DNA from: Planctomycetes bacterium ADurb.Bin069
Lineage (GTDB): Bacteria; Planctomycetota; UBA8108; UBA8890; UBA8898
Reading direction: 5' to 3'
Assembly (NCBI GenBank): GCA_002070955.1
Contig: MWEK01000005.1
Coordinates: forward strand, 1 to 64,000
DNA length: 64,000 nucleotides
The translations under genes and the position numbers were made by a program. Below are positions 13,700 to 19,035 of the stretch, one piece after another (the stretch's first letter is position 1; every line of letters starts with the position of its first letter). The notes beneath the pieces were generated by a model. That model made no database searches. It saw nothing but the letters and a program-made list of their open reading frames with translations, and was not told where the DNA came from.

Positions 13700-14479
13700 A
13701 TGGTATTCAAAGAAATCACGATTCGGTGTGACCGCTGCAGCCGCGCCTTCGGTTGGCGCATGCTAGAACGCTCCGAGGAGGAGACGCGCGGCGGCGCGCC
13801 GCAGCAGATCCCGCACTTGCCGACGCGGTGCATGCAGTGCGCTGAGGCAGACCGCCGTCCCGCGGGCGACCCGCCTCAGCCGGGGCAGGCCTCCCCCGCG
13901 CAGCAGGGCCGGCGGCGCGGGCGCCGCCGCCGCCGCAGGCCCGCCCACCAGGGACAACCGGAGCAGTACGGCTCGCAGCATGCGGGCGGGCAGCGACACC
14001 CGCGCGCGCCGCAGCCGCACGGACAGCCGGCGCGCCACGCCGATGGGCAGCGGCACAACTCGGGCCGCCCGCGCCATCACGGGCCGCACCGGCGGCAAGG
14101 GCCGCAGGAGCAGCGGGACCCTCAGCACCGCCAGGGGCCGCAGCATCCGCAGGGATCGCCGCGCCGGCCCGACCAGGATCGCCGGCAGGACCGGCGGCAC
14201 GGGAACCACCGCCGGCAAGGAGCCCAGGCGCGGCAGGGACAGTACGATCCGCGCGCTCAGCAGGGGCGGCCCCAGGACCGCAATCGACGGCCGCAGCCCA
14301 AGCGGGAGCAGGCCGGTCAAGGCAACGAAGCGGGCGTGCAACGGTTCTGGCAGGCCGTGTGTTGCGTGTGCAAGCGCGCGTTCTTCGTGGACGACCGGCC
14401 GCCGGGCCGCGAACTCGTCCAGTGCCCGCAATGCCTGAAGGACCGCATCACCCGCTTCAGGCAAGGGATGATGCTGTAG
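13700..14479 (+). CDS. zinc-ribbon protein with a long R/G/Q/H/P-rich middle, likely nucleic-acid binding
   Basis: 259 residues in three parts. Residues 1-50 carry one pair of CxxC knuckles (CDRC...CMQC), like the probable zinc-ribbon domain of many planctomycete proteins. Residues 51-210 are low-complexity sequence rich in Arg, Gln, Gly, His and Pro. Residues 211-259 carry a second four-cysteine motif (CCVCKRAFF...CPQCLKDR). Cysteines occur only at the two ends, so the protein is probably two zinc ribbons tethered by a disordered, strongly basic linker. RNA or DNA binding is inferred from charge. The reading frame is supported by the cysteine pairs at both ends. Confidence 0.72.
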   Translation: MVFKEITIRCDRCSRAFGWRMLERSEEETRGGAPQQIPHLPTRCMQCAEADRRPAGDPPQPGQASPAQQGRRRGRRRRRRPAHQGQPEQYGSQHAGGQRHPRAPQPHGQPARHADGQRHNSGRPRHHGPHRRQGPQEQRDPQHRQGPQHPQGSPRRPDQDRRQDRRHGNHRRQGAQARQGQYDPRAQQGRPQDRNRRPQPKREQAGQGNEAGVQRFWQAVCCVCKRAFFVDDRPPGRELVQCPQCLKDRITRFRQGMML

Positions 14480-16560: not shown

Positions 16561-17025
16561 ATGATCAGACGCTTTGAACTCCTTTGCATCATCGCGGCGG
16601 CGGTGGTGGTCCTGCTGATCCTGCGGGAGGCGCTGCCGTCTTGGCGCGTGAGCCGAGAGATCGAGGCCCAGAACCGGCGCCTGGAAGCGCTGCAGGGGAA
16701 CCTGGAGAAAACCGCGGCGGACGGCGCCCGGCACGAATCCGAGCTTGCCGCCCACGCCAAGAAGCTCGCCGAGCACGACGCGGCGATCGCGCGGAACGCG
16801 GAGGCCCTTCAGGGCGTTCGGGACGAGATCAAGCGCCTCGAGGAGCGCACCGCGAAGGACGTCGGGGAGCTCAGGGAGCTCTACAAGAAGTCCCAGCGGG
16901 ACACCGAACTCCTCACCGAGGAGGTGCTCCAGCTCAAACAGGCGCGCCGCCGGATCGAGAACCTGCTGGACACCCTCGAGAAGCGGCTCGACGCGGCGCG
17001 GATCAATCCCGGAGAGATCCAGTGA
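16561..17025 (+). CDS. small single-pass membrane protein with a coiled coil
   Basis: 154 residues. Residues 6-24 (ELLCIIAAAVVVLLILREA) form one membrane helix with a short cytoplasmic start (MIRR). The rest is a continuous charged heptad-type helix (residues 33-145), so most of the protein is an extracytoplasmic coiled coil. No enzyme motif. It could be a scaffold or division-associated protein in the manner of FtsB/FtsL, but that is a guess from shape only. It is convergent with the RNA at 17051-17391, whose terminator hairpin could also end this transcript. Confidence 0.72.
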   Translation: MIRRFELLCIIAAAVVVLLILREALPSWRVSREIEAQNRRLEALQGNLEKTAADGARHESELAAHAKKLAEHDAAIARNAEALQGVRDEIKRLEERTAKDVGELRELYKKSQRDTELLTEEVLQLKQARRRIENLLDTLEKRLDAARINPGEIQ

Positions 17026-17050
17026 GGCGGAGCGGGCGGCGTTAGCCCAT

Positions 17051-17082
17051 AAAAGGGAGACGCCCCGGCGAGCCGGGGCGTC
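17051..17082 (-). terminator. intrinsic-type terminator of the non-coding RNA
   Basis: Perfect inverted repeat GACGCCCCGGC (17059-17069) and GCCGGGGCGTC (17072-17082), followed on the minus strand by TCCCTTTT. The U tract is short and four bases displaced. The hairpin may also serve the convergent gene ending at 17025. Confidence 0.6.
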
Positions 17083-17391
17083 CGGTGGCGAGGAAGGGTT
17101 GGGGTCTGGAATGAGGCGTTCGGCTTTGGTCGTTGGGCAATCGGCCGCTGCCACCGAAAGCGGCCATAATGGACAAAGGAGTGTTTGTTGGTTGTGGTTC
17201 TTCTCTGGTCTCTCGGTTTGTCGGTCGGTTTCTCAGGGTTCTCACTGGAGCATAACTACAAAATCCGTGCCAAACAGAGGCAAATCCGCGGACATACCCG
17301 GAAGCAGCCGTTCATCGCCCCGCGTCAGGGCCTAAGCTGCTTCGCTGTCTGAATTTCCACCGAAGCTGTGTATCCGATCTGTACTGATAGC
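17051..17391 (-). ncRNA. candidate structured non-coding RNA, about 340 nt, family not recognised
   Basis: A consensus promoter (17398-17426) fires leftward into 340 bp with no credible gene and ends at a GC-rich hairpin followed by TCCCTTTT. The 5' part can form a 6-bp stem (GCTTCG with CGAAGC, 17361-17366 with 17339-17344) or an alternative 8-bp stem (GAAGCAGC with GCTGCTTC, 17336-17343 with 17301-17308). A 54-nt segment (17181-17234) contains no uridine and should be single-stranded. A GGCCGC/GCGGCC hairpin (17143-17165) precedes the terminator. I looked for tmRNA, RNase P, SRP and 6S hallmarks and found none. A 67-codon frame inside it has no ribosome site. It lies between the coiled-coil gene and the phosphohexomutase pair. 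Confidence 0.6.
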
Positions 17392-17397
17392 GCATGT

Positions 17398-17426
17398 ATT
17401 CTATGTCACCTTCGAGAACCTGTCAA
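17398..17426 (-). promoter_or_regulatory. consensus sigma-70 promoter for the non-coding RNA
   Basis: On the minus strand: TTGACA (17421-17426), exactly 17 bp, then TAGAAT (17398-17403). This is the best promoter match in the window and no protein gene follows it. The rest of the gap up to the GTG at 17677 holds nothing else that I can name. Confidence 0.78.
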
Positions 17427-17676
17427 GGGGCGATTTCGGGACTTTTTGTACGGAATTATGACAACCGTCAGGACTTAGGTTGCGAGCCCGCGGGCCGAGT
17501 CGCGCGTTTTCCGGGCGCAAAATGATCGCAAACTCATTAAACAGATCGAAATGACACGGGAAACCGCGCCGGCGTCCGGGAACCGCGGCCGGCTGCTTGC
17601 ACCCGGCGCCCCTCTCAGGTAGCCTGGTCGACTGCGCCCGCGGACGTCCTGCGCGCGAATCCGGAGGCTCTGTAGC

Positions 17677-19035
17677 GTGAAACAATTCAAGATCGGCACC
17701 TCGTGGATTCGCGGCGTCGTCGGGAACGGCCTCACGGCCGAGCTGGTGACCGATTTTGCCTGCGCGTACGGGACCTACGTCGGCGGCCGCGAGGTGGTGC
17801 TCGCCCGCGACACGCGGGCCTCCTCTCCGATGCTGGGCGCCGCGGCCCTCGCGGGGCTGCTCTCGACGGGGTGCGACGTCGCCGATGCGGGCGTGTGCCC
17901 GACGCCCGCGGCACAGTACCTGGTGCGGTCCAGGCGCGCGGGGGGCGGCATCGCGGTGACGGGCAGCCACAACGCGGCGGGCTGGAACGCGCTCAAGTTC
18001 ATCGACGAAGAGGGCGCGCTGCTCAACTCCGTCCGCGGCGAGGCGCTTCTCGATCTGTACCACCTCGGCGAGCACACGAAGGCGTCCTGGGACCGCCTCG
18101 GAAAGCGCAAGGAGGCGGCGGGCTACGTCGACGCGTACCTGGCCGACACCGTCGGCCGGCTGAGCGTCGCGGCGATCCGCGCGGCGAAGTTCCGCGTGGC
18201 CGTCGACCTCGTGAACGGCACGGCGGCGGTGGCGATCCGCGAGTTCCTTGGGTTTCTGGGGTGCGAGCCGATTCTGATCAACGCGGAGATGGACCGGGAT
18301 TTCGCCCACGATCCGGCGCCGAACGCGCGCAACATGCGCCAGCTCGAGGCGTTGCTCGGGCACATCCGGGCCGACGCGGGGTTCGCGGTCAACACGGATG
18401 TCGATCGCGTGGGCATCGTCACCGAGAAGGGCGTCGCGCTCTCGGAGGAGAGCACGTTCCCGCTGGTGGCCGACCACGTGCTCGCCGGCGGCGGCGCGGT
18501 CGCCGTGACGAACCTCTCAACCTCGATGATGGTGGACCGCGTGGCGGAGCGCCACGGCGCCCGCATTGTCAGGACCAAGATCGGGGAGGGCAACGTGATC
18601 TTCCGCGCGATCAACGAGGATGCGGTGCTGGCCGGCGAGGGCAGCGGCGGCGTGGCGCTGATGCCGGTGAGCCGCGCTTTCGACGGGTTCTTGACCATGG
18701 CGCTGGTGCTCGAGGCGATGGCCGCGGGCGGGCGGCCCATCTCGGACCTTGCGGGGCGGCTCCCGGCGTTCCTCATGAAGAAGGGCGAGATTCCCTGCTC
18801 GCCGGATCGCGTCTACCACGTGCTGGAGGAGTTCCGCGGGTTCTACCGCTGCGAGGAGGTCGATCTCACCGACGGCATCCGCGTGACGTGGCCGGGGCAC
18901 TGGATCCACGTGCGCGCGTCCAACACCGAGCCGATCCTGCGGGTGATCGTCGAGGGCGAGGATCCCGAGCGCGTCGAGCGCGACTTCGCGGACACGCTCT
19001 TTCGCGTCAACACGGTGGTGCACGGGAAATCATGA
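17677..19035 (+). CDS. phosphoglucomutase/phosphomannomutase family protein (first of a tandem pair)
   Basis: 452 residues, standard four-domain alpha-D-phosphohexomutase length. Family enzymes move phosphate between C1 and C6 of a hexose phosphate through a phosphoserine. Visible: VTGSHNAAGWNALKF (active serine loop, normally TASHNP), the GEGSGGVAL sugar-binding loop, and ASNTEPILRVIVEG (phosphate-binding loop). The Mg-binding loop reads NTDVDRVGI where the family has DxDxDR, so its first aspartate is replaced by asparagine. The GTG at 17677 has GGAGG 9 bases upstream. Its stop overlaps the ATG of the second copy. The weakened metal loop suggests a changed or regulatory role beside the canonical partner. 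Confidence 0.9.
   Translation: MKQFKIGTSWIRGVVGNGLTAELVTDFACAYGTYVGGREVVLARDTRASSPMLGAAALAGLLSTGCDVADAGVCPTPAAQYLVRSRRAGGGIAVTGSHNAAGWNALKFIDEEGALLNSVRGEALLDLYHLGEHTKASWDRLGKRKEAAGYVDAYLADTVGRLSVAAIRAAKFRVAVDLVNGTAAVAIREFLGFLGCEPILINAEMDRDFAHDPAPNARNMRQLEALLGHIRADAGFAVNTDVDRVGIVTEKGVALSEESTFPLVADHVLAGGGAVAVTNLSTSMMVDRVAERHGARIVRTKIGEGNVIFRAINEDAVLAGEGSGGVALMPVSRAFDGFLTMALVLEAMAAGGRPISDLAGRLPAFLMKKGEIPCSPDRVYHVLEEFRGFYRCEEVDLTDGIRVTWPGHWIHVRASNTEPILRVIVEGEDPERVERDFADTLFRVNTVVHGKS

Follow-up and report, generated by a model that had tools for sequence, protein, structure and literature searches.

Many bacterial small RNAs (sRNAs) that carry a promoter and a terminator of their own act by base pairing. 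Bacterial intergenic trans-acting sRNAs, the described systems to which the locus considered here is closest, comprise about 550 annotated families, and one survey counts 8 distinct sRNAs in the PVC group as a whole (PMC9029176). The locus lies in a 64-kb stretch of planctomycete DNA (the window), where an original prediction had proposed an undescribed, structured noncoding RNA. We find that the segment very probably is an independent noncoding RNA gene, and we place it on the minus strand, as the promoter, the terminator and all other signals indicate; the prediction had left the strand unnamed. The RNA resembles trans-acting sRNAs in its own promoter, intrinsic terminator, lack of a conserved ORF and narrow phylogenetic range, and also in its combination of hairpins with an unpaired C-rich segment. 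It differs in being longer than most of them, in having no sequence or covariance match in Rfam and in coming from a genome in which Hfq was not found.

Comparison with known RNA families

The Rfam covariance search that the prediction had called for matched no known family over the segment at gathering level. Permissive filtering (up to E=10) brought up only terminator-shaped or chance matches, in keeping with the predicted lack of tmRNA, RNase P, SRP or 6S hallmarks. The best of the weak matches, sX6 (RF02225), BSnc120 (RF02621) and BcKCsr7 (RF02884), include, like the RNA here, a GACGCCCCGGC-type or similar terminator hairpin. Membership in these families was rejected, since the matches cover almost the terminator alone and reach 16-18 bits against cut-offs of 40-114.

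6S RNA is comparable in that its gene stands alone and has a housekeeping-type promoter, but the RNA described here is twice as long and lacks the long rod with a central bubble. The 6S model RF00013 matched neither the segment nor its own genome, and 6S RNA is reported to be undetected in other planctomycetes too (PMC5673643). The segment was likewise unmatched by the tmRNA model RF00023 (up to E=10), by the SRP RNA models RF00169 and RF01854, and by the RNase P RNA models (up to E=10). It has no tRNA-like ends, the tmRNA matches in its own genome are all tRNAs, and the SRP RNA of that genome lies elsewhere (G000:C2:74131-74220, 51 bits). Hfq, which a genome should encode if the RNA were an Hfq-dependent sRNA, gave no match in its own genome or in that of a congener (G001, Planctomycetes bacterium UBA4800, phylum Planctomycetota), metagenome-assembled genomes whose incompleteness (88.5% and 84% complete) weakens all absences.

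A predicted minus-strand transcription unit

The coordinates of the features are collected in Table 1. The promoter, which had been singled out as the best in the window, matches the consensus at 11 of 12 bases with its 17-nt spacer and is indeed the single exact occurrence of TTGACA-N17-TANNNT in the 64 kb; within the 11 kb surrounding the segment, three promoter-like sites were observed where 0.5 were expected. At the same position G001 has TTGACA-17-TACACT, so that the -35 box is unchanged and two positions of the -10 box differ (TAGAAT to TACACT), and the spacer has drifted between the two genomes while the hexamers were kept. Transcription would start at about position 17391.

Table 1. 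Features of the locus, with positions in the window.
Feature	Position	Strand	Details
Conserved block adjoining the -35 box on its upstream side	17430..17479	minus	86% identical in G001
Sigma70-type promoter, TTGACA-N17-TAGAAT	17426..17398	minus	-35, 17426..17421; -10, 17403..17398
Proposed noncoding RNA, ~340 nt	17050..17391	minus	88% identity in G001; lacks a conserved ORF; framed by promoter and terminator
5' domain	17270..17352	minus	Outer helix P0 (17352..17345 with 17277..17270) around hairpin H1 (17343..17335 with 17309..17301)
U-free A/C/G tract, 54 nt, predicted unpaired	17181..17234	minus	Between H1 and H2
Hairpin H2, GGYCGCU-UUCGGUGGC-AGCGRCC	17143..17165	minus	alifold z -3.8
81-nt block identical in both genomes	17049..17129	minus	Includes the terminator and a C-rich segment, CCAGACCCCAACCCUUCCUC, that is predicted unpaired
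GCCACCGGA beside the terminator	17081..17089	minus	Complementary to the entire 9-nt H2 loop (17158..17150)
Intrinsic terminator, GC hairpin 17083..17058 plus tail CCCUUUUAU	17049..17083	minus	Kept in G001; conservation falls directly 3' of the tail

The predicted 11-bp GC hairpin was confirmed at the other end of the unit: its stem includes nine GC pairs and closes a loop of 4 nt, which makes it the strongest hairpin terminator in the 11 kb. The U-rich tail held up less well, since UCUCCCUUUUAU has at most four U in succession and the U-tract is thus short rather than strong. The segment also proved AT-richer than its surroundings, as stated, with about 54% GC over 17100-17400 versus 68-77% in the flanking genes. 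The conserved block that precedes the -35 box may serve as an activator or UP-type site, as a regulator site or as a portion of a divergent promoter. A role for it in a regulon was rejected, since its core, GGTTGTCAYAATTCCGTACA, occurs once in each of the two genomes.

Upstream of the RNA gene and divergent from it lies a gene of the phosphoglucomutase/phosphomannomutase family (17677-19032, plus strand) with all four Pfam domains, followed from 19047 on the same strand by the second phosphohexomutase gene of the pair, which shares 41% identity with the first. On the downstream side, a convergent gene for 154 aa (16561-17022, plus strand) has no Pfam match. Because its neighbours are divergent and convergent, the segment is an isolated transcription unit and not the leader of a minus-strand gene. 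The same genome holds a broken second copy of the phosphohexomutase pair (G000:C2:226500-230500), which lacks the RNA; the identity is 81% over the C-terminal third of the first protein, and the 5' part is scrambled. Elsewhere in the window, a low-complexity ORF of 259 aa (13700-14476) is rich in Q, R, H, G and P, has Cys pairs at both ends and matches no Pfam entry.

Conservation and distribution

The congener G001 has a syntenic homologue that keeps the promoter and the terminator and matches at 87% identity over 380 bp between the same neighbours; each of the two genomes has one copy. Across the RNA itself the identity is that given in Table 1 and reaches 95% in the last 120 nt; it is 57% in the adjoining intergenic stretch (17480-17676) and 84-89% in the flanking coding DNA. 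The alignment is lost immediately after the U-tract. On this sequence analysis, the segment is under selection.

A BLAST search over 59 relatives returned the congener alone, the remaining matches being short GC-rich or chance ones. When 294 genomes of the phylum (both genomes included, hence 292 others) were searched with two models, one for sequence built on the 3' domain and one for covariance built on the 5' domain, no further convincing match emerged; the best reached 16 bits, under stricter filters with which weak matches may be lost. BLAST against viral contigs, phages and plasmids gave no match to the RNA, and a scan of genome contigs for a conserved 20-mer found, apart from the record of G001 itself, a single chance match in Pelobacter. 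In another genome (G013), the region upstream of the related phosphohexomutase pair (50% protein identity) is a different one and lacks the RNA. On the evidence of these searches, the RNA is restricted to one genus. Repeats in G001 that match 36 nt of the query were set aside as belonging to an unrelated dispersed repeat, which measures about 100-200 bp, shows 96-100% identity among copies and is found on at least nine contigs.

RNA structure

The description of the RNA as structured applies to local hairpins and not to the molecule as a whole. The full 343-nt molecule is no more stably folded than dinucleotide shuffles (z = -0.13), and a long tract is predicted unpaired; the full two-genome alignment has a small advantage over column shuffles (z -1.2 to -1.7). 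On the RNA strand, alifold against column shuffles gave z -2.4 for P0-H1 and z -2.9 for H1 alone, which together with the value for H2 (Table 1) are somewhat optimistic since the helices were picked after both sequences had been inspected. On the opposite strand P0-H1 and H1 score about 0 or positive; this folding is limited to the RNA strand because of the G-U pairs within it. One A-U to G-U change between the genomes retains pairing in the 5' domain. H2 can fold on either strand. The prediction had proposed aligning the orthologous gap, and the alignment yielded one compensatory change in H2 (C-G to U-A), in a comparison of two homologues only that leaves covariation almost untestable.

The U-free tract has no U in its own genome and one in G001, is about 90% identical between them and has a local fold energy near zero. 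The H2 loop and GCCACCGGA form a candidate pseudoknot: their nine-pair complementarity was reached by 15 of 2000 shuffles, both sides are invariant and hence without covariation information, and the last two bases of GCCACCGGA overlap the terminator stem, leaving seven conflict-free pairs.

Coding potential and target searches

A conserved protein in the interval would speak against a noncoding RNA, and the prediction that the 340 bp hold no supportable protein stood up to comparison with G001, which revealed no conserved ORF on either strand. Two 1-nt indels, the loss of an ATG and shifted stop codons disrupt the frames, and the 40 substitutions fall on the three codon positions as 18, 10 and 12, without marked periodicity. 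It is highly unlikely that the transcript is a small mRNA for a short or leader peptide. A 17-codon ORF, MSADLPLFGTDFVVMLQ, does retain both its start and its stop in the two genomes, but about half of its residues are replaced and it has no clear ribosome-binding site; a plus-strand ORF of 55 aa has a Shine-Dalgarno-like sequence but no Pfam match. A coding function would also have to accommodate 81 nt that lack even a synonymous change.

Searches for targets turned up no signal. Against the translation starts of the genes in the window, the U-free tract binds more weakly than its shuffled versions (-15.2 vs -19.4, sd 1.8), and the C-rich segment binds no better than shuffled versions. CAAAGGAGTG, the complement of the conserved CUCCUUUG tract, has no other occurrence in its own genome and occurs once in G001, within apparent gene sequence; the complement of CACUCCUUUG was not found elsewhere in its own genome. 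An anti-Shine-Dalgarno role of CUCCUUUG is thus unsupported by both the complement search and the translation-start test. A 5-nt Shine-Dalgarno match precedes 8 of 39 crudely called genes.

Discussion

Because conservation is bounded by a promoter and a terminator, no ORF is conserved and Rfam has no match, the segment very probably encodes, as had been predicted, an undescribed noncoding RNA. It is a so far undescribed family of a known kind with a narrow distribution: a promoter and a terminator on the same strand frame a sequence conserved in two genomes without conserved coding potential. Sequence analysis shows the gene boundaries, the lack of conserved coding and the strand-specific local hairpins, while we infer transcription, action in trans and a mechanism of base pairing.

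The likeliest reading of how the RNA acts, in which we nevertheless have somewhat limited confidence, is that it is a trans-acting, Hfq-independent regulatory RNA that pairs through its 3' C-rich segment. The strong housekeeping promoter would drive a transcript of about 340 nt that stops at the intrinsic terminator. Its 5' end would fold as the two-part hairpin P0-H1, followed by the U-free unpaired linker and then by H2, the loop of which may pair with the 3' end. The invariant, unpaired C-rich segment could then pair with G-rich stretches in target mRNAs, with the hairpins and the terminator providing stability and presentation. The precedent of sRNAs with promoter and terminator is what suggests the pairing step. 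Against such a mechanism stand the failure of the target search, an invariant block that exceeds the need of a pairing seed and the short U-tract.

The main rival, which we regard as unlikely though worth serious attention, is that the RNA acts mainly through a protein or ribonucleoprotein partner, as a scaffold or by sequestering it. The invariant, possibly pseudoknotted 3' domain would be the binding site, and the U-free tract a flexible linker or a single-strand binding site. The invariant block of 81 nt, which exceeds a pairing seed in length, the candidate 9-bp pseudoknot, the worse-than-shuffled binding of the U-free tract to translation starts and the failure to find Hfq (in both genomes) or 6S RNA (in its own) are all consistent with this scenario. 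However, no gene for a partner protein is linked to the RNA, the molecule as a whole has no folding advantage over shuffles, and distant homologues were not found, in contrast to most large ribonucleoprotein RNAs. It is very unlikely that the RNA represents a new protein-binding class, with a pseudoknotted invariant 3' domain, a U-free linker and a global role in a lineage of planctomycetes that are apparently SD-poor, Hfq-less and 6S-less.

It is similarly improbable that the segment is a cis element of the phosphohexomutase operon, either a plus-strand leader or a DNA element. Its position upstream of the operon in both genomes fits such a role, as does the folding of H2 on the plus strand, and the block at 17430-17479 could belong to a divergent promoter. 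Yet the element and the operon start lie about 200 nt apart, with poorly conserved sequence between them, P0-H1 folds on the minus strand only, the promoter and the terminator are oriented the opposite way, and the related G013 operon does without the element. A divergent housekeeping RNA (6S, tmRNA, SRP or RNase P RNA), suggested by a size and an AC-rich unpaired tract reminiscent of tmRNA and by the missing 6S match and tRNA-only tmRNA matches in its own genome, is the least probable reading and already largely refuted by the permissive cmscan, the lack of tRNA-like ends and the SRP RNA located elsewhere.

Since this is one RNA in one uncultured genus, its immediate impact is modest. Very few annotated small RNAs come from Planctomycetota and related groups, and in a lineage in which Hfq is undetected and Shine-Dalgarno starts are few, a well-bounded and strongly selected RNA gene would offer an entry point to RNA regulation.
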